Assembly: GCF_028736035.1 (NCBI RefSeq)
Contig: NZ_CP117866.1
Coordinates: 7,192,001 to 7,256,000, forward strand
Reading direction: 5' to 3'
Length of the DNA stretch: 64,000 bases
Origin: Streptomyces sp. T12
GTDB taxonomy: Bacteria; Actinomycetota; Actinomycetes; Streptomycetales; Streptomycetaceae
Shown here: positions 8,049 to 24,099 of the stretch, one piece after another
Layout of the letters: the number at the start of each line of letters is the position of its first letter
Position numbering within the stretch: the first letter of the stretch is position 1
The notes under the pieces: generated by a model
The model's database searches: none
Told to the model about the DNA's origin: nothing
The model's input: only the letters and a program-made list of their open reading frames with translations
Program-made: the position numbers and the translations under genes

Positions 8049-8408
8049 ATGAGTCACATCCAGGACATCGAACTGCCGGACGGCACGGTGATCACCGCCA
8101 GGATCGGCGCGGCCGACGCCTACGACGACCAGGAGGACGTCGGCTTCACCGAGGCCGCGGTGGCCAAGCTCGACCAGCTCCAGGAGCTGATCAAGGGCGT
8201 CGGCGGCACTGTGCTGACGGCCGCCCGAGAGGCCAGGCCGCACGAGGCCGCCATCACCTTCGGCGTGGAGCTGACCGCCAAGGAGGGCGTGGCCGTCGCC
8301 GTACTCGCCCGGGGTGAGGTCAAGGCGTCCCTGCAGGTCACCCTCACCTGGCAGTTCGACGGCACCACCGCAGGGGAGGCCGACGAGAGCGCGGCCGCGC
8401 ATGAGTGA
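8049..8408 (+). CDS. Trypsin-co-occurring domain protein (CU044_2847 type)
   Basis: A 119-residue protein that begins with a strand-rich segment (IELPDGTVITARI), then a helix (FTEAAVAKLDQLQELIKGV) and ends with a pair of strands (EAAITFGVELTAKEG and ASLQVTLTWQF). This layout matches the small Trypco1/CU044_2847 family that is encoded beside trypsin-like proteases in actinobacterial conflict systems. It overlaps the protease start by eight bases (ATGAGTGA), so the two are translationally coupled. GGGGAG precedes the ATG. It probably associates with or is processed by the protease, but this is inference. A relative is encoded at the far end of the same island (19513-19845, minus strand). Confidence 0.8.
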   Translation: MSHIQDIELPDGTVITARIGAADAYDDQEDVGFTEAAVAKLDQLQELIKGVGGTVLTAAREARPHEAAITFGVELTAKEGVAVAVLARGEVKASLQVTLTWQFDGTTAGEADESAAAHE

Positions 8409-10359
8409 GCGCGACGACCGCCTCTTCGACCTCGTCCGGGCCGCCACCGTCCATCTGCTCCCCGCCGAAGGAAAGGACAGCCCCCTGTGGGGCAGCGGCT
8501 TCTTCGTCGCGCCCGGCTGGGTGCTGACCGCCGCCCACGTGCTGCGTCCCCACCTCCTGACGGACCGCCAGACCGCGTTCCGGGTGCGCGGCGAGGGCGT
8601 CGACGCCGAGGCGCGACTGGTGCGGTGGCTGATCACCGACCCCCGCTGCCCCAAGGTCCCGCTGGCCGAGGACCTGGCCCTGGTGCGGCTGACGGGCGAC
8701 CCCGACGAGCACTCCCACGAATGCGTGTGGCTCACCGACCGCGCCGCCCCTCACTCCGGCGCCCTCAAGGCGTGCGGCTACTACCCCGAACCGCGTGAGG
8801 CCCGCTTCCGCATCGTGGACGCCGTGATCAACGGGCGCGAGGACCCGTACGGCCTGATCATCAAGCCCGACATCGACTTCCCGAGCGGTATGTCGGGCGG
8901 TCCGCTGCTCGACCCAGGGACGGGAGCGGTCGTCGGGCTGATCAAGTCGCGGCGCAAGGAGAAGGACGGCGGCAAGGCGGTGGCGATCGCCGCGCTGCGC
9001 CGCTTCGGGGAGACGTACCGCACGGTCATGGCGGCCCACGACCGCTGGCACGGCGCGGAGCCGGTCTCCGAGAGCGGGGACAACTGGATCGACCTCCAGC
9101 ACGGGCCGTCGACCGACCAGAGCCCGGCATGGACGCCCCGCGACCGCCGCAAGGCGCTGGCTCTGCTGGCCGCGCTGCCGCCCCCGCCCGACGAGCCCAC
9201 CGTGCGTCTCATCGCCAAGGAGGCGCGCAGCGGCAACCAGTGGGCCGGCGCCACGCCCGAGCTGCGGACCTGGCGCGACGGCCACGGCCTGCTCTACGAA
9301 GGCACCGCCCCGCTCGACCCGCTCATCTTCCTGCGCTACATGAGGCTCGTCGGCGCCCACGCCTGCGCGCGCGACGCCGACAGCCCCGCCCTCACCGGCT
9401 GGATCGACGAACGGCTGCGCGGCGACACCCGCCGGTACCTGCACGCTCTGGCCCGCGACGTCACCCTCCCCGACGGACTCCAGCCGTCCCCCGAGGACGA
9501 CGGTCCGGAGCGCATCGTGATCCCCTACCCCGGCCCCGGTGAGGGCCCCGTGGTGGCCCTGCTGCTCGACCCGGTGATCGGCTCGCAGCCCGTCCGGTTC
9601 TTCTGGCAGGTCTGGTACGACGACGGCGACGGCCTGCCCGAGGTGCACGAGACGGACGGCTCGGTGCACGGATGCCGGCCCGACGAGCTCGTCCAGGCAC
9701 TGCGCGTCCCGCTGGGCGGACTGCTGGCGTCCAAGGACCGTCAGGGGCACCCCGTACCGCTCGAAGTCGCCCTGCCCGCCGAGCACTTCGACACCGCCGT
9801 GCACCGCTGGCGGTTCGAGGACATCGCCGCGCTGAACGACCCCGGACACCTGGGCGCGCGCCGCCGCCTGGTGCTGCGCGCCCTTGAGCGCCGGGGAGAT
9901 CCGGACAATCTCTGGGTCGACCGCTGGCAGCGCATGACGGCCGGGCGGCGCTTCCAGGGCTGGCGCATGCCTCCGCCGGGCGCCGTGGACACCGTCGGCT
10001 ACCGCGGCGCGGAGTGCGACCGCATCCCCGTCATGTGCCGGCCGGCCGGACAGGGCACCGGCCGGGTCGCCATGAACCGCGCCCTGGAGAGCGGCCACGG
10101 TGTCGCTCTCTGGCACATCGGCTCCCACCCCGAGCGGGCCTGTCTGCCGGAGTGCGAAAGCCTCCACGCGCGGATCGAGAAGTTCCTCGGGGCGCTCGGC
10201 TCGCTGTCCGAACTCCCCGACCGGCTGCGGCACGTGCGGCAGGACATCAGCGAACAGCGGGCCGACAGCGCCTGGGCCGAACCCCTCGCGCTGCTCTACG
10301 ACGACCCGCGCCGCCCCCTGCCGGACGAGGAGACCGATCCGGTGGACGCGCCGCTGTGA
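8401..10359 (+). CDS. Trypsin-like serine protease with effector-associated and VMAP-C-like domains
   Basis: A 652-residue cytosolic protein (no signal peptide). Residues 1-200 form a trypsin/HtrA-fold peptidase with an intact triad: His46 in LTAAHV, Asp91 in EDLALVRL and Ser165 in SGMSGGP. Residues about 250-330 (RKALALLAALPPPPDEPTVR and following) resemble an effector-associated adaptor domain. The rest, rich in Trp/Asp/His (FFWQVWYDDGDG, HRWRFEDI), resembles the VMAP-C module of vWA-MoxR-associated proteins. In the conflict systems described for this family, such proteins are proteolytic effectors switched by MoxR and vWA partners. Both follow directly downstream here. The start at 8401 is fixed by the overlap with the previous gene. 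The domain call past residue 250 is by resemblance. Confidence 0.82.
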   Translation: MSERDDRLFDLVRAATVHLLPAEGKDSPLWGSGFFVAPGWVLTAAHVLRPHLLTDRQTAFRVRGEGVDAEARLVRWLITDPRCPKVPLAEDLALVRLTGDPDEHSHECVWLTDRAAPHSGALKACGYYPEPREARFRIVDAVINGREDPYGLIIKPDIDFPSGMSGGPLLDPGTGAVVGLIKSRRKEKDGGKAVAIAALRRFGETYRTVMAAHDRWHGAEPVSESGDNWIDLQHGPSTDQSPAWTPRDRRKALALLAALPPPPDEPTVRLIAKEARSGNQWAGATPELRTWRDGHGLLYEGTAPLDPLIFLRYMRLVGAHACARDADSPALTGWIDERLRGDTRRYLHALARDVTLPDGLQPSPEDDGPERIVIPYPGPGEGPVVALLLDPVIGSQPVRFFWQVWYDDGDGLPEVHETDGSVHGCRPDELVQALRVPLGGLLASKDRQGHPVPLEVALPAEHFDTAVHRWRFEDIAALNDPGHLGARRRLVLRALERRGDPDNLWVDRWQRMTAGRRFQGWRMPPPGAVDTVGYRGAECDRIPVMCRPAGQGTGRVAMNRALESGHGVALWHIGSHPERACLPECESLHARIEKFLGALGSLSELPDRLRHVRQDISEQRADSAWAEPLALLYDDPRRPLPDEETDPVDAPL

Positions 10360-10507
10360 GCACGGGGCCGTACCCGCCCGACCGCTGGCCGAAATCACCC
10401 GTGTACCAGGGCTGTTCTGGGTACATTTCCAGGGGCCCGTTGCGGGCGCACGATGCCCCCGTCGGCCAGGCCGTGGACTACCACCGACCGTCGACGAGGA
10501 GCGCACC

Positions 10508-11506
10508 GTGAGCGAGTGGTTCATCTACCAGGGGATCGGACGTCCGGATCCGGCCAGGATCGACCTGCTGCCAGACCCGCCCCCCTGGCGGGCGTTCGAC
10601 GCTCGATCCGTCGACTACGAGGTCCCGGAGCTCGACTCCTCCACCCACCGCAGGCTCGGCGCGCGCACCGTCCCGCTGCCCGTCCAGGACCCGGACGCCC
10701 TGGAACTCGTCAACGCCGCCCTGTACCTGAGGCGCCCGCTGCTCGTCACCGGCGAACCCGGCGTCGGCAAGTCGACGCTGGCCCACTCCGTCGCCTACGA
10801 GCTCGACCTCGGCCGCGTCCTGGAATGGCCGATCGTCAGCCGCAGCGAACTGCGCGACGGCCTCTACACCTACGACGCCATCGGCCGCCTCCAGGACTCC
10901 CAACTGCCCGGCGACCCCGCGTCCCAGGACATCGGCCGGTACATCAAACTCGGCCCGCTCGGCACCGCGCTGCTCGCCGCCGACAAGCCACGCGTGCTGC
11001 TCATCGACGAGCTGGACAAGAGCGACATCGACCTGCCGAACGACCTGCTGAACGTCCTGGAGGAGGGCCGGTTCGCCATTCCGGAGCTGGAGCGGATCGC
11101 CGACCGCACCCCGGAGGTCGACGTCCTCACCGACGACGGGCGCCGGGTGACCGTGACGGGCGGTCAGGTCCGCTGCCGGGCGTTCCCCTTCGTCGTCATG
11201 ACCAGCAACCGCGAACGCGAGTTCCCCGCCGCGCTGCTGCGCCGCTGCATCCCCCTCGATCTCAAGGCCCCGCGCGACGAACGCCTCGCCGCCCTCGTCC
11301 AGGCCCACTTCGGGCAGGGCTCCTACGACGACAACCGCGACCTCGTCGACCAGTTCACCCAGTCCGAGGCGGACGGCTCACTGCGTCCCACCGACCAACT
11401 CCTCAACGCCATCTTCCTCGCCCAGCACGCCGCCCGGGACGCGGCCCAGCGGCGCGAGGAGATCTCGGAGCTGTTGATGCAGCCCCTCGACCGAGGGCCG
11501 CGGTAG
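10508..11506 (+). CDS. MoxR-type AAA+ ATPase
   Basis: A 332-residue AAA+ ATPase with Walker A GEPGVGKST (residues 82-90), Walker B VLLIDELDK (about 165-173), sensor 1 in VVMTSNRE and an arginine-finger region at ALLRRCIPLDL. The N-terminal 60 residues are acidic and Pro-rich. It is the MoxR component of a MoxR/vWA/VMAP set. These ATPases act as chaperones that load or remodel vWA-domain partners. The start is the GTG at 10508, preceded by GAGGAG. A 148-base gap separates it from the protease gene, and the vWA gene starts three bases after its stop, so they are co-expressed. Confidence 0.9.
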   Translation: MSEWFIYQGIGRPDPARIDLLPDPPPWRAFDARSVDYEVPELDSSTHRRLGARTVPLPVQDPDALELVNAALYLRRPLLVTGEPGVGKSTLAHSVAYELDLGRVLEWPIVSRSELRDGLYTYDAIGRLQDSQLPGDPASQDIGRYIKLGPLGTALLAADKPRVLLIDELDKSDIDLPNDLLNVLEEGRFAIPELERIADRTPEVDVLTDDGRRVTVTGGQVRCRAFPFVVMTSNREREFPAALLRRCIPLDLKAPRDERLAALVQAHFGQGSYDDNRDLVDQFTQSEADGSLRPTDQLLNAIFLAQHAARDAAQRREEISELLMQPLDRGPR

Positions 11507-11509
11507 CCG

Positions 11510-14500
11510 ATGACCTCCCGCGCTCCCGGCATCCCGGCAGGCGACGTGAGCCCCGTGCTCACGGCGCTGGTCGCGCGTATGCGGGACGCGGGCATCGCGC
11601 CCGGAGTCGAGGAGCTCGCGGACGCGCTGTGGCTCGCCCGCTGGCTGCCACGGTCCGCGCAGCAGCCCGACCGGCCCGGGACCGCCCCGGCCGACGCGGC
11701 CACCGACCCGCTCGCCGACCCCGGCGCGCTGCCCCCGGGGGCGACGCACAGGCCCCACCTGCCCGCCCAGGACAGCGAGCCGCAACAGTCCGAGAGGGCA
11801 GGGCTGTTCGCGCCCGGCCCCGGAGGCGACGTCGCCGACTCCCGGATGACCCGGGTCCGCGTCCCCGCCGCACCCGCCCTGCCCGAACCCCTCGCCCTGC
11901 AACGGGGGTTACGGCCCCTGCAGCGCTACCGGGCGCCCGTACGGCCCGTGCCGCGCACCCTCGACGAGCGCGCCACCGCCGAGCGCGCCGCGGAGTCCGG
12001 CCTGGTCCTGCCCGTCCTGCGCACGGACCGGCGCCGCGAGGCACGCCTGCTGCTCCTGATGGACATCTCCACCTCGACGGTCGTATGGCAGCAGGCCTTG
12101 GACGAGCTGCGCCAGGTCTGTGCCCGCGCCGGTGCCTTCTGCGAGGTGCAGGTGCGCTATCTGCACGAGGCGCCCGGCGGACGGCCCGGCTGTGCGTCCA
12201 CCCCGGAACCCGCCGCCGCGCTCTACGCACCGGAGCAGCTCAGCGACCCGACCGGGCGGCGCGTCACCTTGGTCCTCAGCGACTGCGCCGGACCCATGTG
12301 GCGCAGCGGCCGGGTGCAGCGGCTGCTGTACCGCTGGGCCGCGACGGCGCCCGTGGCCGTCGTACAGCCGCTGCCGCAGCGGATGTGGCTGCGCACGCAT
12401 CTGCCTGCCCGGCGCGGGCTGTTGCGACGGCGCGAAGGGCCCGCCGGGTCGCTGCTGTTCCGGCCCGACAAGGGGCCGGTGGAAGCCGGCGCGCTGCCGG
12501 TCCCCGTGCTCGCGCTGCGCCGGGAGTCGGTGGAGGGCTGGGCGCGGCTGGTGTCCGGCGCCACCGGACAGTCGCTGTCCGCCGCGGCCGGCTGGGTGCG
12601 GGCCGACCATCCCGAGTCCGCGGCGCCGGTGCGGGCCACGCAGGAACGCAGCGGTGCGGATCGCGTCCGCGCCTTCTGGCGTCCGGCGTCCTCCGAGGCG
12701 CGTCGGCTGGCGGTGTATCTGTCCGCGGTGCCGCTGTACCTGCCGGTGATGCAGCTCGTCCAGCACGCCATGCTGGCCGGGAGCGGGCCGGACGTGTTGT
12801 CCGAGGTGCTGCTGAGCGGGCTGCTGCGGCGGCGGGAGGACGCGGACGATCCGCGGGCCGTGCGCTACGACTTCCTGCCGGGGGTGGCCGGCGAGCTGCG
12901 GTCCCGTCTGTCGGTCGACGAGGTGGAGCTGCTGTTCAAGCACTGCTCCGAGTACGTGGAACGGAAGTTCGGGCGCAGTGCGCGCAACTTCCCCGCGCTG
13001 GCGGGGGCGTTCCTGCGGGGCGCGGTGCCGCCGGACGGGGAAGCGCCCGCTGCCTCGGGCGAGCGGGAACCGGCCGGGCTGCGGGCGTTCGCCGAGGTGT
13101 CCGCGGAGGTGCTGCGGGACCTGGGCGCGCGGCTGCCGACGGTGCCGGTGGGGCCGGGGCACAGCGCGTCGGAGCTGCTCGACCTGGGCCGCCAGGCGCT
13201 GGCCCGGTTCAACGAGGAGGGGCTCACCCGGGAGCTCGATGCCGCGGTGGGGTGTCTGCGGCAGTCGGTCGTGGCCGCGCGGTCGGGCGGTGAACGGGCC
13301 CTGGCGGGCGAGGTGTTGGCCGCCGCGCTGCTCGCCCGCTGGCGGGTGCGGCGCGTGGGGGAGGACCTGCGGGAGGCGTGGGAGGCGGTCGAGGGGCAGA
13401 CCGTCACTGCGCGCGGGCGGCTCGTGCGGGGGTTGGTGTGCTGGGCTCAGGCGCAGGAGGTACGCGGGAGCGGGGTCGACTTCGACGGGATCGCGGAGAG
13501 CCTGCGGGAGTGGGCCCGGGCGAAGCCGGGGCGGGTCGAGGAGCGTGCGCTGCGTGTGTTGCTGTATCTGGCCGACGAGAGCCTGACCGCCGTCCTCGCC
13601 GACGAGGGCACGCAGGCCGAGGAACTGGAGCGGCGCAGGGTCGCCGCGGAGGCGCTGGCGGGTGTGCGGCGGGCTGTGGGGGAGCTGGGGCCGCGGAGGA
13701 AGGACACGGTTGAGAAGTGGTACGTCCGTCACCTGCAGCGGGCCGTCGACGCGGCGGACGTCTGGCTCGACCTGGTCCGGTCCGAGCAGGGCCTGGTCGT
13801 GCGGGGGCGGTTGTGGCTCGATCTTGCGCGGCAGTACGCGGGGTACAGCCCGGACGGGCAAGCCGCTTCGCAGGCGGCCGGCTGGGCGTTGCGCGCCGCC
13901 GAGGACCTCAAGGCCGCAGTCGGCGCATCCGTCCTGCCGGACGATGAGCGCTGCCGGATCTGGCTGGACGTGGCGGACGCTGTCGAGATCGAGCAGTTCC
14001 TGCGCCATGGCGACCGGATGAGTGAGGCGCTGTTGGACGCGGTGGGGCACGCCCGGCGGGCCGCAAGGGACGACGTAGGACTGATTCTTGAGTGCCTGGT
14101 GCGGATCGGGGGCATCCACAACGAACGGTATGAACGGACCGGCGAGCTGCACGACCTGGAACGAGCCATCGCCGCATGGACGGACGCCGTACCACTGCTC
14201 GACGAGGACGACTCCCTTCGGTCCGACCTGCTCGCCACCCTCGGCATCGGCTGGCTCCAGCGGGCGGTGCGACCGGACTCGGCCGACGACGTCGTCAACC
14301 GAGCCATCGACGTGCTGCGCCTCGCGGTCGAAGAGTCCCCGCCGGACTATCCGCTCCTGCCCATGCGACGCCGGCATCTGGCAGACGCGTACGTCATGCG
14401 CTACGACCTCACCCACGTGCTTACCGACCTGTACGAGGCCGACTGGCTGCTCGCGGAGGCCGCTCGCGGTTCGGAGGACGCGGTTCTCCGCGCGGAGTGC

Positions 14501-14791
14501 CTGAGCGGTCGCGGCCGCGTTGCCTCGATGCTGTACGAGCGCACGGAAGTGATCGCGCATCTGCACAAGGCGATCGAGTTCTTCAGCCAGGCCATTGAGC
14601 ATGCCGAGGAGGCGGGCGACAACGCGCTGGTGGCCGCGGCTCTCATGGGACGCGGCCAGGCACGAGAGCTGCAGGGCAGGCCCAGCACGGCCCGGTCCGA
14701 CTACGAGCACGCCGGCCGTCTGACGGCCGACCGCGACCGCCCCCTGCGTCGGCACATCTCCCGCCTGTCCCCCGAAACGGCCGACGAGTGA
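11510..14791 (+). CDS. SAV_2336-type vWA domain protein with C-terminal helical repeats
   Basis: A 1093-residue protein. The N-terminal helical domain (LVARMRDAGIAPGVEELADA) is the SAV_2336-type segment, followed by a Pro-rich linker. A vWA fold then carries the metal-ion site DISTS (Asp185-Ser189). The C-terminal 450 residues are all-helical and TPR-like (for example LLDLGRQALARFNEEGLTRE and ERAIAAWTDAVPLLDEDDSL). It is the presumed scaffold and switch of the conflict module with the MoxR ATPase upstream. Codon 134 is TTA (11909-11911), the only in-frame TTA I found in the window, so its translation should need the bldA tRNA. Its stop overlaps the GTG of the precursor peptide gene (GTGA). 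The last third is less GC-rich than the middle. Confidence 0.85.
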   Translation: MTSRAPGIPAGDVSPVLTALVARMRDAGIAPGVEELADALWLARWLPRSAQQPDRPGTAPADAATDPLADPGALPPGATHRPHLPAQDSEPQQSERAGLFAPGPGGDVADSRMTRVRVPAAPALPEPLALQRGLRPLQRYRAPVRPVPRTLDERATAERAAESGLVLPVLRTDRRREARLLLLMDISTSTVVWQQALDELRQVCARAGAFCEVQVRYLHEAPGGRPGCASTPEPAAALYAPEQLSDPTGRRVTLVLSDCAGPMWRSGRVQRLLYRWAATAPVAVVQPLPQRMWLRTHLPARRGLLRRREGPAGSLLFRPDKGPVEAGALPVPVLALRRESVEGWARLVSGATGQSLSAAAGWVRADHPESAAPVRATQERSGADRVRAFWRPASSEARRLAVYLSAVPLYLPVMQLVQHAMLAGSGPDVLSEVLLSGLLRRREDADDPRAVRYDFLPGVAGELRSRLSVDEVELLFKHCSEYVERKFGRSARNFPALAGAFLRGAVPPDGEAPAASGEREPAGLRAFAEVSAEVLRDLGARLPTVPVGPGHSASELLDLGRQALARFNEEGLTRELDAAVGCLRQSVVAARSGGERALAGEVLAAALLARWRVRRVGEDLREAWEAVEGQTVTARGRLVRGLVCWAQAQEVRGSGVDFDGIAESLREWARAKPGRVEERALRVLLYLADESLTAVLADEGTQAEELERRRVAAEALAGVRRAVGELGPRRKDTVEKWYVRHLQRAVDAADVWLDLVRSEQGLVVRGRLWLDLARQYAGYSPDGQAASQAAGWALRAAEDLKAAVGASVLPDDERCRIWLDVADAVEIEQFLRHGDRMSEALLDAVGHARRAARDDVGLILECLVRIGGIHNERYERTGELHDLERAIAAWTDAVPLLDEDDSLRSDLLATLGIGWLQRAVRPDSADDVVNRAIDVLRLAVEESPPDYPLLPMRRRHLADAYVMRYDLTHVLTDLYEADWLLAEAARGSEDAVLRAECLSGRGRVASMLYERTEVIAHLHKAIEFFSQAIEHAEEAGDNALVAAALMGRGQARELQGRPSTARSDYEHAGRLTADRDRPLRRHISRLSPETADE

Positions 14792-14940
14792 CCCTCCCCA
14801 CCGACGACACCCACATACGCCTGCCGGAGATCGCCCCACCCGACCACACCGACCACCCGGTATTGGCCGCGATCCTCGCCGAACTCCGCACCCGTGAGGG
14901 GGAGAGCATCGTCGTCGCCCACTACGAAGACGCGCCATGA
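14788..14940 (+). CDS. RiPP precursor peptide ending in Tyr-x-Asp-x-x-COOH (FxSxx-COOH-like)
   Basis: A 50-codon gene too short for usual ORF calling. The GTG at 14788 overlaps the vWA stop (GTGA), and its TGA overlaps the ATG of the radical SAM gene (ATGA). Its peptide has an acidic, His/Pro-rich leader, a helical segment (VLAAILAELRTREGES, residues 25-40) and the C-terminus VVAHYEDAP. Placed against FxSxx-COOH precursors, which end in VAGFxSxx, the Phe and Ser positions are Tyr46 and Asp48. The neighbouring FxsB-like enzyme would be expected to join the aromatic ring to a side-chain carbon within Tyr-Glu-Asp (or His-Tyr-Glu), giving a three-residue cyclophane. The reading frame and overlaps are seen. 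The modification is inference from the FxsB/triceptide family. Confidence 0.8.
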   Translation: MTLPTDDTHIRLPEIAPPDHTDHPVLAAILAELRTREGESIVVAHYEDAP

Positions 14941-16160
14941 CCACTCACCCTCACCCGCCTCCCCACCCCCACCCGCCGTGGCCGTACGCCCTTCTCGACA
15001 CCACGGCCCACCGGCCCGTCCCCTTCCGGCAGTTCGTGCTGAAGGTGCACGGCCGGTGCAACCTCGACTGCACCTACTGCTACCTCTACCAGGGCCCCGA
15101 CCACGGCTGGCGCGACCGCCCGGCCCGCACCTCCGAGCGCACGATGCGCCACACGGCGGACCGCATCGCCGAGCACGCCCGCACCCACGGCCTCGACGCC
15201 ATCCGCATCGAACTCCACGGCGGCGAACCCCTCCTGAGCGGCCCCGGCCCCGTCCTCGCCTACGCCCGAGCCGTACGGGAGGCCGTCCCCGCCGGCTGCC
15301 GGATCACCGCCACCGTCCAGACCAACGGCACCCGCCTGACGGCCGAGGCCCTCGACCGCCTCGCCGACGCCGGCATCCGGGTCGGCCTCAGCCTCGACGG
15401 CGGTCGGGCCGCGCTCAACGCCCGTCGGGTCGACCGCGCCGGACGCCCCGCCTGGCCCGCCGCCCGCGCGGCGGCACAGCGGCTCGCCGCGCGGCCGCGG
15501 ACGTACGCCGGAATCCTCTGCACGATCGACCTGGCCGCCGAACCGCTGGACGTCTACCGCTCGCTGCTCGAACTGCGCCCGCCCGGAGTGGACTTCCTGC
15601 TCCCGCACGCCAACTGGGACCGGCCGCCCCCGGGCACGGTCCGCCGGTCCCCCGGGCGGCACCGCCCGCATCCCACCCCCTACGGCGACTGGCTCGCCGC
15701 CGTCTTCGACGCCTGGTGGGACGGGGCGCGGCTCGGCACGCGCGTACGGCTGTTCCAGGAGATCGCGGGGCTGCTGCTCGGCGCGCCCAGCAGGGCCGAG
15801 GCCGTGGGGCTGTCGCCGGTGGCCGCCGTCGTGGTCGAGACGGACGGCGGCATCGAGCAGGTCGACTCGCTCAGGTCGGCGTACGAGGGCGCCTCGGAGA
15901 CCGGCCTCGATGTCTTCCGGCACTCCTTCGACCGCGCCCTGCGCCATCCCGGCGTCGCCGCACGGCAGCTGGGGGAGCGGGCGCTGGCCGACGAGTGTCT
16001 GGGCTGTCCCGTGGGGAAGGTGTGCGGGGGCGGGAACTACGTGCACCGGTACGCTCCCGGGACGGGGTTTTTGCACCCCAGCGTCTACTGCGCCGATCTG
16101 GAGCGGCTCGTCCGGCACATCGCGCACCGGCTGGAGCGGACGTCCCGGGGAGACCGGTGA
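14937..16160 (+). CDS. fxsB: FxsB-like radical SAM/SPASM cyclophane-forming peptide maturase
   Basis: A 407-residue radical SAM enzyme. The [4Fe-4S]/SAM motif is CNLDCTYC (Cys41, Cys45, Cys48), followed by the ELHGGEPLL motif that contacts SAM. The C-terminal SPASM region has Cys354, Cys357, Cys363 and Cys385 in the FxsB-typical arrangement (CPVGKVCGGGNYVHRY, then PSVYC). The family forms carbon-carbon cyclophane bonds in small C-terminal peptides. It stops after SPASM, so it lacks the beta-hydroxylase-like extension seen on some FxsB proteins. The ATG at 14937 overlaps the precursor stop, which leaves little doubt about the substrate. The gene symbol is used in the family sense: the partner peptide is a Tyr/Asp variant rather than a true FxSxx peptide. 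Confidence 0.88.
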   Translation: MTTHPHPPPHPHPPWPYALLDTTAHRPVPFRQFVLKVHGRCNLDCTYCYLYQGPDHGWRDRPARTSERTMRHTADRIAEHARTHGLDAIRIELHGGEPLLSGPGPVLAYARAVREAVPAGCRITATVQTNGTRLTAEALDRLADAGIRVGLSLDGGRAALNARRVDRAGRPAWPAARAAAQRLAARPRTYAGILCTIDLAAEPLDVYRSLLELRPPGVDFLLPHANWDRPPPGTVRRSPGRHRPHPTPYGDWLAAVFDAWWDGARLGTRVRLFQEIAGLLLGAPSRAEAVGLSPVAAVVVETDGGIEQVDSLRSAYEGASETGLDVFRHSFDRALRHPGVAARQLGERALADECLGCPVGKVCGGGNYVHRYAPGTGFLHPSVYCADLERLVRHIAHRLERTSRGDR

Positions 16161-16217: not shown

Positions 16218-16278
16218 CTGTGCACAGTCGTGACCAGGTTCAGTCGAGCCAGGTTCAGTCGAGCCAAGTTCAGTCGAG
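16218..16278 (+). repeat. Palindrome and three tandem 15-bp repeats ahead of the NB-ARC/TPR gene
   Basis: A 15-base unit, CCAGGTTCAGTCGAG, occurs three times head to tail at 16234-16248, 16249-16263 and 16264-16278 (one mismatch in the last). The array runs into the ribosome binding site (GAGGGGG) of the next gene. A perfect 10-bp palindrome CTGTGCACAG (16218-16227) lies just upstream. The 15-base period and position suggest binding sites for a regulator or a 5' UTR control element. Some reading frames start within the array, but the ATG after the binding site is the better start. Confidence 0.75.
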
Positions 16279-16291
16279 GGGGAACGGCGAG

Positions 16292-19252
16292 ATGGCGGCG
16301 GAACTCGGACATGTCACGGTGGTCTTCGCCGGACAGAGCGAGTCCTGGGCCAAGTGGATCGACCACCAGATCCGGGCCGCGGGACGGGGCACCACGCTGA
16401 TCAGGTGGAACCCGCTGCGGCGCCCCCCGACCGCCGAGGCGTTCACCGACCTGCTGAGCGCGCCGGGACGCGTTTTGCTCGTGATCGACGACTGGCACGA
16501 ACGCCTGGGCAGCGAGCGGTTCGAGGCCTGGGCCCAGGCCCTGCGGCAGGTGCTGCCGGCGTACGAGGACCGGATCGCCGCCGTGAGCATCACCGCCCGC
16601 CCCATGCCCGAGGCCGTCATCGCCCTGGCCCCCGTCGAACTGCGCGGCCTTCGGCCCGAGGTGGCGCGCAGCCGGGTCCTGGAGTGCGCGGGCATACCCG
16701 CTCCGGGCGCGCTGATCGACCTGAGCCGCGGCCCCCGGTTCCCCGACGACCCGCCGGACGTCTGGCAGGTCCCGCGCCGCAACCGCCGCTTCATCGGCCG
16801 CACCGAACTGCTGGAGAAGGTCTACGGCGCCTTCTCCGCCGCCGGAGACGACGGCGCCGCCGTGGCGCTGCTCGGCCCCGGCGGCTTCGGCAAGACCCAG
16901 CTGGCCCTGGAGTACGTCCACCGGTTCGCCGGCGAGTACGACATCGTCTGGTGGGTCAACGCCGCCCAACGCGTCACCGCCCGCCAGCAGTTCGCCGACC
17001 TCGCGTCGGCCCTGGACCTGCGGGACTCCGGCGACCTCGGGTCCACCATCACGGCCGTACGCCGTGAACTCGACCGCACTGCGCGGCCCTGGCTGCTCGT
17101 CCTGGACGGCGCCGGCGACCCGGAGCGGCTGGACGGCCTCGTGCCCGAAGGACGCGGCCACGTCCTCGTCACCACCCACCGCAGCGAGTGGGGCGCCCAC
17201 GCCGAGAACATCGCCGTACCGGCCTTCGAACGCCGCGAGAGCGTCGCCTTCGTCGAGCGCCGCACGGCACGCCTCAGCGACACCCAGGCCGCGCGCCTCG
17301 CCGAGGCCGTGGAGGACATGCCCCTGCTGCTCGACCAGACGGCCGCCTGGCTGGACATCAACCCGACCGTGCCGGTCGACGACTACATCCGGGACATCCG
17401 CGACGGCCGCCCGGACCGCTTCGGCGTCATGGCCTCCGGCCAGTACCCGGAGAGCTTCGAGGTCGCCTGGGCGAAGCTCGTCAACACCCTGCGCGAAGGC
17501 TCGGAGACCGCCTGGCAGCTGCTCAACCTGCTCGTCTGCTTCTCGCACGACGTGGTGCCGGTACGGCTGCTGCAGACCGCCCGGCACGGCGACCTGCCCG
17601 CCGAACTGGTCGAGCTGATCGCCGAGCCCAGCACCTGGAACACCGCCCTGCGCCGGCTGTCCGAGATCACCTCCATGCGGATCGAGTACGAACCCGGGCC
17701 GCGGATGGACTCCCAGACCGTCGGCACGCTGCGCATGCACCGCCTCTTCCACCGCTTCGTACGGTCCATCCAGTCGCCCGCCGACGCCGAGCGCTACTCG
17801 GCCGCCGCCCGCAAGGTCCTCGTCTCCGCCGACCCGCGCGACTCCTCCTCGGCCGGCAACTGGGCCCGGTACGCCGTCCTCATCCCGCACCTGGAACCCT
17901 CCGGGGCCCTGGAGTCGGCCGACGACGACGCGCGGGAACTCGTCCTCAACTGCATCGAGTACCTGCGGATGCGCGGCGAGTACCACGACGGCTGGTGGCT
18001 CAGCCGCACCGCCGTGGAGCACTGGCGGGCCACCTCCGGCGACACCGACCGCTCGGTGCTCGTCGCCGTCCACCAGCTCGCCAACATGCTGCGCAGGCTG
18101 GGGAAGTACCCGGAGGCGGAGACCGTCGGCCGCGAGATCCTCGGGCGGCTCGAACGCGCCGACGACGTACGCCCCATCGAGGTGATCCGCGCCAGGGACG
18201 GCCTCGGCGGCACCCTCATGGCCCTCGGCCGCTACCCGGAGGCCCGCGCCCTGTTCGAGGAGGCGGCCGCGAGCGCCGCCGCGGAGCTCGGCGGCGAGCA
18301 GGTGCCACGCACCCTCGCCATCCGCAGCAACCTCGCCGTCGCCCTCGGCCTCCAGGGCCACTACACCGAGTCGCTCGCCCTGCACCGCAAGGTCTTCGAG
18401 GCCCGTGTGGAGGTACTCGGCGGACGCGACGCCCTCACCCTCAACTCCGCGCTGCGCGCCGCCTGGATGCTGCGCCTGCTCGGCAGCTACCGTGAGGCGC
18501 TGGCCATCCAGGGCCACAACTCCCGCGTCCACAGCCAGGTCCTGGACCGCACTCACAGCCAGACCCTGCTCGCCGAGCACAACCTCGCCCTGTGCGCCCG
18601 CCGGGTCGGAGACCTGCAGTTCGCGCACGCCATGCTGCGCGGGGTCCGCGAGAAGCTGATGCGCCGCCGCGGCCCGCTGCACCCGGAGACACTGATGGTC
18701 TCCTGCGACTACGCGATGCTGCTGCGCGACCTGGAGCGCACCGAGGAGGCCAGGGACCTGGCCGAAGCCACCGCCACGCACTACGCCGCCCAGCTCGGCG
18801 ACCGCCACCCCTACGCGATCGGCGCGCGGGACAACGTCGCCACCGTCATGCGCGACATGGGCGAGACACGGGCCGCGCTGGAGCTGTCCCGGCAGACGGC
18901 GCGGCAGATGCGGCGGGCGGTCGGCCGGGCCCACCCGTGGGCCATCGGCTGCGCCAAGAACGAGGTCGCCGCACTCGCCGCCGTGGGTGACGCCGACGCC
19001 GCGGCCGCCCTGGGCCGGGAGACCGCCGACCGCTCCGCCCGCGTTCTCGGCGACGCGCACATCCTCACCATCAGCCTGCGGGCCGGGCTGGCGCTGGACC
19101 TGGCCGAGCTGGGCGAACACGCGCAGGCCGAGAGGCTGCACCAGGACGCGGTCGCCCGGCTCACTTCAGTGCTCGGCGCCGACCACCCGCACACCCGCAC
19201 CATCCTCGAACGGCACCGCCCCTACTGGGACTTCGAGCCCCAGCCCATCTGA
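16292..19252 (+). CDS. fxsT: FxSxx-COOH-system-type TIR-like/NB-ARC/TPR protein
   Basis: A 986-residue cytosolic signalling ATPase. Residues 1-135 resemble a TIR-like fold (GHVTVVFAGQSESWAKWIDH, then RVLLVIDDWHERLG). An NB-ARC NTPase follows with the P-loop GPGGFGKT near residues 193-201 and Walker B WLLVLDGAGD near 267. The C-terminal 400 residues are tetratricopeptide repeats (for example LGGTLMALGRYPEARALFEE). Proteins of this architecture are regular partners of FxsA/FxsB genes and resemble STAND sensors used in defence or self-recognition. The start at 16292 is chosen for its GAGGGGG site. It is separated from the maturase gene by 131 bases that contain a repeat array, so it may have its own promoter. 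Confidence 0.85.
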   Translation: MAAELGHVTVVFAGQSESWAKWIDHQIRAAGRGTTLIRWNPLRRPPTAEAFTDLLSAPGRVLLVIDDWHERLGSERFEAWAQALRQVLPAYEDRIAAVSITARPMPEAVIALAPVELRGLRPEVARSRVLECAGIPAPGALIDLSRGPRFPDDPPDVWQVPRRNRRFIGRTELLEKVYGAFSAAGDDGAAVALLGPGGFGKTQLALEYVHRFAGEYDIVWWVNAAQRVTARQQFADLASALDLRDSGDLGSTITAVRRELDRTARPWLLVLDGAGDPERLDGLVPEGRGHVLVTTHRSEWGAHAENIAVPAFERRESVAFVERRTARLSDTQAARLAEAVEDMPLLLDQTAAWLDINPTVPVDDYIRDIRDGRPDRFGVMASGQYPESFEVAWAKLVNTLREGSETAWQLLNLLVCFSHDVVPVRLLQTARHGDLPAELVELIAEPSTWNTALRRLSEITSMRIEYEPGPRMDSQTVGTLRMHRLFHRFVRSIQSPADAERYSAAARKVLVSADPRDSSSAGNWARYAVLIPHLEPSGALESADDDARELVLNCIEYLRMRGEYHDGWWLSRTAVEHWRATSGDTDRSVLVAVHQLANMLRRLGKYPEAETVGREILGRLERADDVRPIEVIRARDGLGGTLMALGRYPEARALFEEAAASAAAELGGEQVPRTLAIRSNLAVALGLQGHYTESLALHRKVFEARVEVLGGRDALTLNSALRAAWMLRLLGSYREALAIQGHNSRVHSQVLDRTHSQTLLAEHNLALCARRVGDLQFAHAMLRGVREKLMRRRGPLHPETLMVSCDYAMLLRDLERTEEARDLAEATATHYAAQLGDRHPYAIGARDNVATVMRDMGETRAALELSRQTARQMRRAVGRAHPWAIGCAKNEVAALAAVGDADAAAALGRETADRSARVLGDAHILTISLRAGLALDLAELGEHAQAERLHQDAVARLTSVLGADHPHTRTILERHRPYWDFEPQPI

Positions 19253-20011: not shown

Positions 20012-23000
20012 TCAGGCCTCGAACACCTCGCGGACCAGCTGCTCCTGCTCGGCCTGGTGCCGCTTGGCGGAACCGACGGCCGGGGACGAGCCGTGCGGAC
20101 GCGAGATGCGGCGCAGGCGCTCGCCGTGCGGGACGTCGGCGCCGACGGCCAGGTCCAGGTGGTCGATCAGGTTGAGCGCGATGAACGGCCACGCACCCTG
20201 GTTCGCCGGCTCCTCCTGGGCCCACAGGTACTTCTCGGCGTTCGGGTACTTGGCGATCTCGGCCTGGAGCTCGGCACCCGGCAGCGGGTACAGGCGCTCG
20301 ATGCGGATGATCGCCGTGTCCGTGACGCCGCGCTTCTTCCGCTCGGCCTCGAGGTCGTAGTAGACCTTGCCGGCGCAGAAGACGACCTTCTTGACCGCGG
20401 CCGCGTCGACCGAGGAGTCACCGATGACCGGCTGGAACTGCCCGGTCGTGAACTCCTCCGCCTTCGACGCCGCGGCCTTCAGACGCAGCATCGACTTCGG
20501 GGTGAAGACGACCAGCGGCTTGTGGTGCGGGTTGTGCGACTGCCACCGCAGGAGGTGGAAGTAGTTCGACGGGGACGTCGGCATCGCGACCGTCATGTTG
20601 TTCTGCGCGCACAGCTGCAGGAACCGCTCCGGGCGGGCCGAGGAGTGGTCCGGGCCCTGGCCCTCGTAGCCGTGCGGCAGCAGCAGGACGACGCCGGACG
20701 TCTGGGCCCACTTCTGCTCGGCCGACGAGATGAACTCGTCCACGACCGTCTGGGCGCCGTTGACGAAGTCGCCGAACTGGGCCTCCCACATCACGAGCGC
20801 GTCGGGGCGGGCCAGCGAGTAGCCGTACTCGAAGCCCATGGCCGCGTACTCGGACAGCAGGGAGTTGTAGACGTTCAGCCGCGCCTGGTCCTCGGAGAGG
20901 TACTGCAGCGGCGTGTACTCCTCGCCCGTCTCGCGGTCGATGATCACCGCGTGACGCTGGCCGAACGTACCGCGCTGCGAGTCCTGGCCGGCCAGACGCA
21001 CCGGGACGCCCTCCAGCAGGAGGGAGCCGACGGCGAGGGTCTCGCCCATGCCCCAGTCGATGGTGCCGTCCTCGACCATCGACGCCCGGCGCTGCAGCTG
21101 CGGCAGCAGACGCGGGTGGACGGTGATGTGGTCGGGGATGTTGACCTGGGACTCGGCGATCCGCTTGACGACCTCCGAGGTCACCGCGGTGTTCACGGCG
21201 ACCGGGAACTCGGCCTGCGGGTCCGAGGGCTCCGCGGCGGCGGGCTGCGAGGTGGCCTCGCGGACCTCCGTGAAGACCTTCTCCAGCTGGCCCTGGTAGT
21301 CCTGCAGTGCCTGCTCGGCCTCTTCCAGGGTGATGTCGCCGCGACCGATCAGGGACTCGGTGTAGAGCTTGCGCACCGAGCGCTTCTTGTCGATCAGGTC
21401 GTACATCAGCGGCTGGGTGAAGGCCGGGTTGTCCGACTCGTTGTGACCGCGGCGGCGGTAGCAGATGAGGTCGATCACCACGTCCTTGTTGAACGCCTGG
21501 CGGAACTCGAAGGCGAGCCGCGCGACGCGGACCACGGCCTCCGGGTCGTCGCCGTTCACGTGGAAGATCGGGGCCTCGATCATGCGGGCCACGTCGGTGG
21601 CGTACATCGACGAGCGCGAGGACTCCGGGGCGGCCGTGAAGCCGACCTGGTTGTTGATGACCACGTGGACCGTGCCGCCGGTGCGGTAGCCCCGCAGCTG
21701 CGACATGTTCAGGGTCTCGGCCACCACGCCCTGGCCCGCGAAGGCCGCGTCGCCGTGCAGGGCGACCGGCAGGACGGTGAAGTCCGTGCCGCCCTTGTTG
21801 ATGATGTCCTGCTTGGCGCGGGCGACGCCCTCCAGGACCGGGTCGACCGCCTCCAGGTGCGAGGGGTTGGCGGTGAGCGAGACCTTGATCTGCTCGCCGT
21901 CCAGGCCGGTGAAGGTGCCCTCGGCGCCCAGGTGGTACTTCACGTCGCCGGAGCCGTGCATCGACTTCGGGTCGAGGTTGCCCTCGAACTCGCGGAAGAT
22001 CTGGGCGTACGACTTGCCGACGATGTTGGCGAGCACGTTCAGGCGGCCGCGGTGGGCCATGCCGATGACGACCTCGTCCAGACGGGACTCGGCGGCCGAG
22101 TCCAGCACCGCGTCCAGCAGCGGGATGACGGACTCGCCGCCCTCCAGGCTGAAGCGCTTCTGGCCGACGTACTTCGTCTGCAGGAAGGTCTCGAAGGCCT
22201 CCGCCGCGTTCAGCCGGCGCAGGATGCGCAGCTGCTCCTCGCGCTCCGGCTTGGTGTGCGGGCGCTCGATGCGGTCCTGGATCCACTTGCGCTGCTTGGG
22301 GTCCTGGATGTGCATGAACTCGATGCCGGTGGTGCGGCAGTACGAGTCGCGCAGCACGCCGAGGATGTCGCGCAGCTTCATCAGGGACTTGCCGGAGAAG
22401 CCGCCGACCGCGAACTCGCGCTCCAGGTCCCACAGGGTGAGGCCGTGCTCGGTGATGTCCAGGTCGGGGTGCTTGCGCTGGCGGTACTCCAGCGGGTCGG
22501 TGTCGGCCATGACGTGGCCGCGGACCCGGTAGGAGTGGATCAGCTCGAAGACCCGCGCGGCCTTGGTGACGTCGTCGTCGTGCGACGCGTCGATGTCCTT
22601 GAGCCAGCGGACCGGCTCGTAGGGGATGCGCAGGGCCTCGAAGATCTCGTCGTAGAAGTTGCTCTCGCCGAGCAGGAGGTTCGCGACGATCCGCAGGAAC
22701 TCGCCGGAGGCGGCGCCCTGGATGACCCGGTGGTCGTAGGTCGACGTGAGCGTCATGACCTTCGAGATGCCGAGCTTGTTCAGGGTGTCCTGGGACGTGC
22801 CCTGGAACTCCGCCGGGTAGTCCATGGAGCCGACGCCCATGATCACCGACTGGCCGGGCATCAGACGCGGCACGGAGTGGACGGTGCCGAGGCCGCCGGG
22901 GTTGGTCAGGGAGACCGTCACACCGGTGAAGTCGTCCATGCCCAGCTTGCCGTCACGGGCACGCCGGACGATGTCCTCGTAGGCCTGCCAGAACTCGAAG

Positions 23001-23818
23001 AAGTTCAGCGTCTCGGCCTTCTTGATGCCCGCGACGACCAGCTGGCGGTCGCCGTTGGGCTTCACCAGGTCGATGGCGAGGCCGAAGTTGATGTGCTCCG
23101 GCTTGACCAGGGTCGGCTTGCCGTCCTTCTCCGCGAAGGAGTAGTTCATCGACGGCATGGCCTTGATGGCCTGCACCATCGCGTACCCGATGAGGTGCGT
23201 GAAGGAGATCTTCCCGCCCCGGGCGCGCTTGAGGTGGTTGTTGATGACGATGCGGTTGTCGAAGAGCAGCTTCACCGGGACCGCGCGCACGGACGTGGCC
23301 GTGGGCACCTCCAGGGAGGCGTTCATGTTCTTCGCGACCGCGGCGGCCGGGCCGCGCAGCGTCACGAGCTCAGGGCCCTCCGAGGGTGCGCCGGCTGCGG
23401 CGGGCTCGGCCTTCTTCGGCTGAGCGGGCTTCGCGGCCGGGGCGGGCGCGGCGGGCTTCGCCGCGGCCGGGGCCGGGGCCGGAGCCGGGGCGGCAGGCGC
23501 GGCGGCCGCGGGCTTCGGGGCCGCGGGAGCCGGCGCGGGGACCGACGGAGCGGCAGGCGCCGGAGCGGCCGGAGCCGTGGTGGTCTCTGCGGCCCCCGCG
23601 GCCGCAGTACCCGCCGGAGCCGAGGCGGCGGGCGCCCCCGGCTTGTAGTCGGCGAAGAAGTCCCACCAGGCTCGGTCTACCGAATTGGGGTCCTGGAGGT
23701 ACTGCTGATAGATCTCGTCGACGAGCCACTCGTTCGGACCGAACGCGGCCGCGGGGTTCTTGCCCGCTTGGTCGGTGTCGGTCGAGATGCTCGAGTTACT
23801 GGGGGACTGTGGCGACAC
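20012..23818 (-). CDS. kgd: Multifunctional 2-oxoglutarate dehydrogenase/decarboxylase (E2-E1 fusion)
   Basis: A 1268-residue actinobacterial KGD-type enzyme of the TCA cycle. Order: ODO N-terminal segment with [20 protein letters not shown] (GarA-contacting in relatives), an Ala/Pro-rich flexible linker (about residues 50-140), a succinyltransferase-like E2 catalytic domain ([20 protein letters not shown] region), then the thiamine-diphosphate E1 domain ([57 protein letters not shown]). It works with lipoyl carrier and E3 subunits encoded elsewhere. I start it at the GTG at 23818 (SPQSPSNSS follows), downstream of GAAGAGGG. A GTG at 23846 is the alternative. It is monocistronic with a strong terminator. 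Confidence 0.94.
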
Positions 23819-24099
23819 GGCGGCAACCGCCCTCTTCCGCTTCACAAGGTGATGGACAGCGGAAATAAAGGCTACGCCCCTATGGCCGCGAAGGTCAGGC
23901 TGAGCAAGGTCATCGTCGCGTAAGTCACATCGGAAAGCGTGTTTCGTGCCTGGAAATGGCGGGAAACAAGCGTGGTTCCGCATCAGCTGGGAAGGCGCGA
24001 CCGCGGCCCGGCACGCCACAGGCGCGGGGCTCTGCCTGATCACACGTGTCCGTCAGTCAGGACGCACATGGATCTTGTCGCTCCGCTTCGAACTTTACG

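Follow-up and report, generated by a model that had tools for sequence, protein, structure and literature searches.

The window analysed here, a stretch of 64,000 nucleotides from Streptomyces sp. T12, contains a 50-codon frame wedged between two longer genes, and it raises the question of whether this frame encodes a peptide, how such a peptide would be modified and what it might do in the operon that surrounds it. The explanation that best accounts for the data as a whole, and that we regard as fairly probable, is that the frame encodes a precursor of the triceptide-type RiPPs on which an FxsB-type enzyme would form a Tyr46-Asp48 ring, as part of a VMAP-ternary system.

A small gene and its relatives

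The frame (positions 14788..14940, + strand) begins with a GTG that lies within the stop of the upstream gene at 11510-14791 (an overlap of 4 bases, GTGA), and its TGA shares 4 bases (ATGA) with the ATG of the radical SAM gene at 14937-16160. The 50-aa translation finishes ...SIVVAHYEDAP, leaving YEDAP-COOH at the C-terminus. The first-pass annotation had reported an unlisted precursor gene that bridges a vWA and a radical SAM gene and overlaps both; the frame is present as claimed, and ‘unlisted’ is a fair description of a peptide whose named homologues are called hypothetical or uncharacterized. Such a frame could be a spurious product of chance between two genes, given its small size, its GTG start codon and a GC-rich genomic background in which spurious frames abound.

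A search of 5.8 billion proteins returned 33 homologues at E<=1 among 33 candidates (best E 1.3e-24), one of which (P0003, 98% identical) is probably the window's own copy. Of these, 28 of 33 are 49-51 aa long, and the alignment begins at a common start. The YEDAP-COOH tail is invariant in all 34 aligned precursors (window included), as are V42-A44 within the tail region (Y46-P50 being YEDAP itself) and residues P13, T21, D22, H23, P24, V25, A27, I29, L30, L33 and R36, an invariance that is partly selected because the homologue search requires shared five-residue words. An alignment of relatives had been proposed as the check on the Tyr-x-Asp-x-x ending, and it bears this ending out in 34 of 34. 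The median dN/dS of the precursor genes is 0.41 (120 pairs among 16 related genes, which are 16 of 20 clade members after four were removed for length). The existence of homologues, the invariant tail, purifying selection and a constant position beside the enzyme make a chance frame vanishingly improbable; conservation rules that reading out, and 14788-14940 is confirmed as a real, small, conserved peptide-coding gene.

The family to which this peptide is related is NCBI's model of YxD-tail cyclophane-containing RiPP peptides, NF041709, which the window precursor matches at 37.3 bits (E 1.9e-9), short of the curated cut-off of 55 bits. Precursor residues 20-50 align to profile positions 16-47 of 47, so the YxD tail meets the end of the model. 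All 34 aligned members match NF041709 at E<=0.01 (best E 1e-10), and the five that were scored in bits range from 30.6 to 37.3, from which it appears that none of the 34 reaches the cut-off; judged by its sequence, the precursor is a divergent relative of the YxD family. Membership of the FxSxx-COOH family was rejected: TIGR04268 gave no match to the window peptide at E<=1, and its tail is not of the FxSxx form. The same model weakly matches 5 of the 34 relatives (best E 3.8e-4). A precursor profile whose seeds had Tyr-, His- and FxS-type tails also recovered unseeded tails of the WGFNNSF type.

Scanned across the whole genome, the YxD model places this frame first (E 1e-7; next match 0.1), and in 14 control genomes it gave chance matches at E<=10 in 13 of the 14 and at E<=0.01 in none. 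Across 394 genomes of the taxonomic family, 137 contain a match at E<=0.01 and 18 a match above the cut-off; the figure of 137 is not a tally of YxD systems, because many weak matches span the leader only (profile 1-37), and the five leader-only matches that were fetched (L075-L078 and L080) bear FxSxx tails. In a sample of 396 genomes from across the phylum there were six matches at E<=1e-5, all in the window's genus and one the window's own, of which four are leader-only.

The neighbouring enzyme and the predicted ring

The gene that overlaps the end of the precursor (14937..16160, + strand) encodes a 407-aa radical SAM/SPASM protein of the FxsB family, the predicted ring-forming enzyme. It scores 420.2 bits against TIGR04269 (FxsB; curated cut-off 370), in line with the FxSxx-related enzyme that the first-pass annotation had expected beside the precursor, and 309.2 bits against the YhhB model, below the cut-off of 445, so it is not YhhB. 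Its iron-sulfur cysteines are conserved among the enzymes compared, with Cys41/45/48 in 113 of 114 and Cys354/357/363/385 in 114 of 114. The nearest solved relative is the radical SAM domain of ChlB (PDB 9gm3, E 3e-70), which we take to be a fused radical SAM/alpha-ketoglutarate-HExxH enzyme.

Characterized enzymes of this kind suggest what the reaction could be. According to the review PMC11002830, YxdB forms a C3(Tyr)-Cbeta(Asp) bond, HaaB forms a C2(His)-Cbeta(Ala) bond and YhhB joins Tyr and His to Arg. The conserved tail VVAHYEDAP (14911..14937, + strand) places Tyr46 (14923-14925) and Asp48 (14929-14931) as the predicted ring partners, a placement made because of homology to YxdB and conservation, and the tail very probably receives a Tyr-to-Asp ring from the neighbouring enzyme. 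The assignment of Tyr and Asp to the bond-forming positions of a precursor homologous to FxsA and YxD peptides is thus supported by the 34 conserved tails. An accompanying hint of new chemistry is weakened, since the YxdB bond described in that review makes the predicted ring chemistry already known and NF041709 already models YxD tails.

To place these tails in a wider sample, named genomes were scanned with 31 aligned radical SAM proteins drawn from near NF041709 matches, and the best 80 of 501 relatives were kept, giving 79 loci whose titles name Streptomyces, except for one Streptantibioticus and one ‘Actinobacteria bacterium’. These loci contain 83 distinct enzymes, 82 with an assigned tail (YxD 56, HxD 4, FxD 5, FxN 13, FxS 3 and WxN 1), and the acceptor is Asp in 65 of the 82. 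Together with the window and 40 fetched stretches they make up 120 stretches with 127 enzyme matches and 114 distinct proteins. A tail was assigned to 112 of these by a pattern that requires F/Y/H/W-x-D/N/S, which in part guarantees that a donor and an acceptor appear; 90 are Asp-type (donor Y 73, H 11, F 6) and 22 are Asn/Ser-type (FxN 13, FxS 8, WxN 1). A tail of the [D/E]-x-Pro form occurs in 43 of the 112, and its stop overlaps the start of the radical SAM frame in 35 of the 43, vs 13 of the 69 others; the overlapping, short-tail form seen in the window is therefore a recurrent arrangement.

The first-pass annotation had left the ring on either Tyr-Glu-Asp or His-Tyr-Glu. A ring on His45-Tyr46-Glu47 (His to Glu), or a second ring there, would suit the invariance of Glu47 in all 34 relatives and the composition of the 90 tails of Asp type: the position just ahead of the donor (Y 58, H 14, F 10, D 2, R 2 and one each of A, S, Q and E, nine residue types in total) is aromatic or His in 82, and the middle residue (E 64, D 17, A 3, S 3, G 3) is Glu or Asp in 81. 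However, position 45 among the 34 close relatives is H in 25, Q in 5, R in 2 and D in 2, so that nine lack a ring residue there with the tail otherwise unchanged, Tyr46 and Asp48 never vary, and the known bond of this type, as given in the review, is Tyr-Asp. A ring that involves His45 is therefore quite improbable, and Tyr-Glu-Asp is the favoured site. The tail data, in which 42 of 90 Asp-type tails stop exactly two residues past the Asp, favour an i to i+2 bond to Asp in which the ring at i can be exchanged.

Variation on this theme was also observed. Three precursors (adjacent to the radical SAM gene at L106, L107 and L149) contain two core-like repeats (AYFSDAP ... AYFADAP or AYFADTP), a multi-core form, and seven loci (L048, L054, L057, L115, L117, L118 and L144) contain two adjacent enzyme-precursor pairs with differing tails, for example AYHEDSP and AFYEDGPYQL. 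Enzyme position 289 holds Ala in 65 of 73 Tyr-donor proteins and Ser or Thr in 17 of 17 His- or Phe-donor Asp-type proteins. As a donor-specificity residue it is a weak lead only: the rule is broken by 8 Tyr-donor proteins and by 7 of 21 Phe-donor Asn/Ser-type proteins, the column was selected as the top one among 373, and supported independent pairs number only 2.

The operon and the possible role of the peptide

The peptide gene is the fourth of six on the + strand, in the order VMAP, AAA ATPase, SAV_2336/TPR, peptide, radical SAM enzyme and TIR-like-NB-ARC-TPR. The VMAP gene (8314..10359, whose true start may be the ATG at 8401) encodes a trypsin-like peptidase (Trypsin_2, 59.6 bits) joined to VMAP-C (118 bits), and its catalytic triad is conserved among aligned loci (His75 94/94, Asp120 91/93, Ser194 90/90); the genome has four VMAP-C genes, one of them in the window. 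The AAA ATPase gene (10100..11506; AAA_5 33.9 bits, cut-off 22) has an uncertain true start and is the MoxR component by layout. By layout also, the next gene (11510..14791; SAV_2336 N-terminal domain, NF041121 442.8 bits) is the vWA component of the ternary system; its C-terminus has a weak TPR match (TPR_12, below cut-off), and no Pfam vWA domain was found in it. Downstream of the enzyme lies the TIR-like/NB-ARC/TPR protein of FxSxx systems (16220..19252; NF040586 778 bits, NB-ARC 32.1 bits), in which TIR_2 scores 22.2 bits, under its cut-off of 28. NADase activity of this protein is doubtful because, when the window's Glu, Asp and Trp positions in the first 190 residues were compared, no Glu of the TIR-like region was conserved in more than 80% of 116 loci. 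Between the enzyme and TIR-like genes a 15-base repeat occurs three times at 16234-16278 (ccaggttcagtcgag, the third copy with one change), and the TIR-like gene may start beyond these repeats, at the ATG at 16292. The operon is adjoined by an ordinary multifunctional 2-oxoglutarate dehydrogenase-type gene (20012-24043, - strand); a + strand frame over it (20057-23923) gave no family match and is probably spurious.

This arrangement recurs beside Asp-type tails. The VMAP, ATPase and SAV_2336 genes are all upstream in 65 of 90 Asp-type cases, the other 25 lacking at least one of them within the stretch covered, some of these stretches stopping at a contig end; 76 of the 90 have a TIR-like gene no more than 300 bases downstream, and 14 have no close one. 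PADLOC gave only general similarity (radical SAM, peptidase, ATPase). Section 23 of PMC7159879 describes this operon layout for FxSxx peptides, and in layout the window's operon matches the VMAP-ternary conflict system presented there; it is a putative immunity operon. VMAP-C and the AAA ATPase are present, the third gene is SAV_2336-type with no Pfam vWA match, and the downstream NB-ARC/TPR protein that the same section gives an N-terminal TIR is found (NF040586, NB-ARC) with a weak TIR match. The HExxH metallopeptidase that it calls the core of the peptide-processing module is absent, as the enzyme gene leads directly to the TIR-like gene.

The absence of the HExxH gene extends to other Asp-type systems. 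When such genes were sought by tblastn with one HExxH protein query (>60 bits, same strand, <=2.5 kb after the enzyme stop), a search that could miss diverged HExxH genes, they were found in 0 of 90 Asp-type vs 19 of 22 Asn/Ser-type cases, and the latter becomes 21 of 22 with L126 and L158, where HExxH (HELQH) is fused to the radical SAM enzyme in a single frame. The remaining Asn/Ser-type locus, L125 (FEN tail), has no HExxH gene, and L127, the only Asp-type locus whose stretch contains any HExxH match, has it upstream, beside another TIR-like gene. An enzyme tree built by a quick method shows nine changes of donor and just two of acceptor type. There are only 2 independent pairs, and in an average of 0.9 of them the HExxH gene goes along with the acceptor; the link is a clade-level association and not proof of a functional one. 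TIGR04267, the HExxH family that NCBI now describes as a peptide beta-hydroxylase, has one match in the window's genome, below cut-off, in a second FxsB gene that lies elsewhere (L079). That gene has a degenerate beta-hydroxylase-like extension with no HExxH motif in frame and a below-cut-off match to NF040587; an FxsC gene is present, and the 1.3 kb upstream yielded no precursor.

From these features a path can be proposed in which the leader of the precursor is bound by the coupled FxsB-type enzyme, which would join the Tyr46 ring to the beta carbon of Asp48 and yield a three-residue Tyr-Glu-Asp cyclophane two residues before the C-terminus; HExxH-type beta-hydroxylation would not be expected. 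The peptide and enzyme would be part of the VMAP-ternary system with the TIR-like-NB-ARC-TPR protein, to which the modified peptide may be tied, signalling or acting as an effector inside the producing cell or close to it, perhaps after release by the VMAP trypsin domain. No cut site is claimed for this peptidase: all 34 aligned precursors have Arg36, but the residue six before the catalytic Ser varies among relatives (E 33, D 30, R 17, Q 3, G 2, A 1). A more specific and distinctly tentative proposal is that the cyclophane serves as an internal alarm ligand, which the trypsin domain frees upon attack and which then activates the TIR-like-NB-ARC-TPR protein, an NLR-like protein of bacteria; if so, Asp-type systems would form a signalling branch that lacks the beta-hydroxylase accompanying the Asn/Ser-type branch.

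The peptide could instead be an exported antibiotic or intercellular signal whose location in a conflict operon is secondary. Antibiotics are common among the cyclophane RiPPs (PMC11002830 names darobactin and dynobactin), and the section of PMC7159879 on this layout offers a toxin or signal as the role of the peptide. However, the scan of the operon genes revealed no transporter, and in most loci the gene is kept between SAV_2336 and the radical SAM gene, upstream of the TIR-like gene, so export is an unlikely reading, and a role within the proposed VMAP-ternary system remains the one that we prefer.

Relation to known systems

Taken singly, the ring chemistry, the YxD family model and the layout of the conflict system were known before. 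In the literature searched, which covered few subscription papers, we found no statement on YxD peptides in VMAP systems, so what is possibly unreported is that YxD peptides are a further VMAP peptide type and go without the HExxH gene. The analysis thus sets a ring chemistry that is already characterized within a putative immunity operon, and draws attention to a clade of YxD peptides still annotated as hypothetical. Both the natural Tyr, His and Phe swaps against a fixed Asp and the Asp vs Asn/Ser split that tracks the HExxH gene provide ready-made pairs for studying enzyme selectivity and peptide function.

Among known systems, the NF041709 model presumably corresponds to the YxdB system, with which the window shares a homologous leader end, a YxD core and an FxsB-type neighbour; it differs in that its precursor scores below the cut-off, has 50 residues and stops at YEDAP, whereas loci above the cut-off often have longer tails, such as AYYEDGPEKVLH. 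The window resembles FxSxx-COOH systems (FxsA, TIGR04268/TIGR04269) in its FxsB-family enzyme, FxSxx-type TPR protein and operon layout, but has Tyr/Asp in place of Phe/Ser and lacks the HExxH gene. ChlB has the solved radical SAM domain nearest to that of the window enzyme, which is without the HExxH domain. Finally, the window shares with the VMAP-ternary module, as laid out in section 23 of PMC7159879, a separate TIR/NB-ARC/TPR gene downstream and VMAP and ATPase genes upstream, and it departs from that module in lacking the core HExxH metallopeptidase and in having a YxD peptide, which lies outside the four types given there (FxSxx, RxD, acidic and FtsH-associated).
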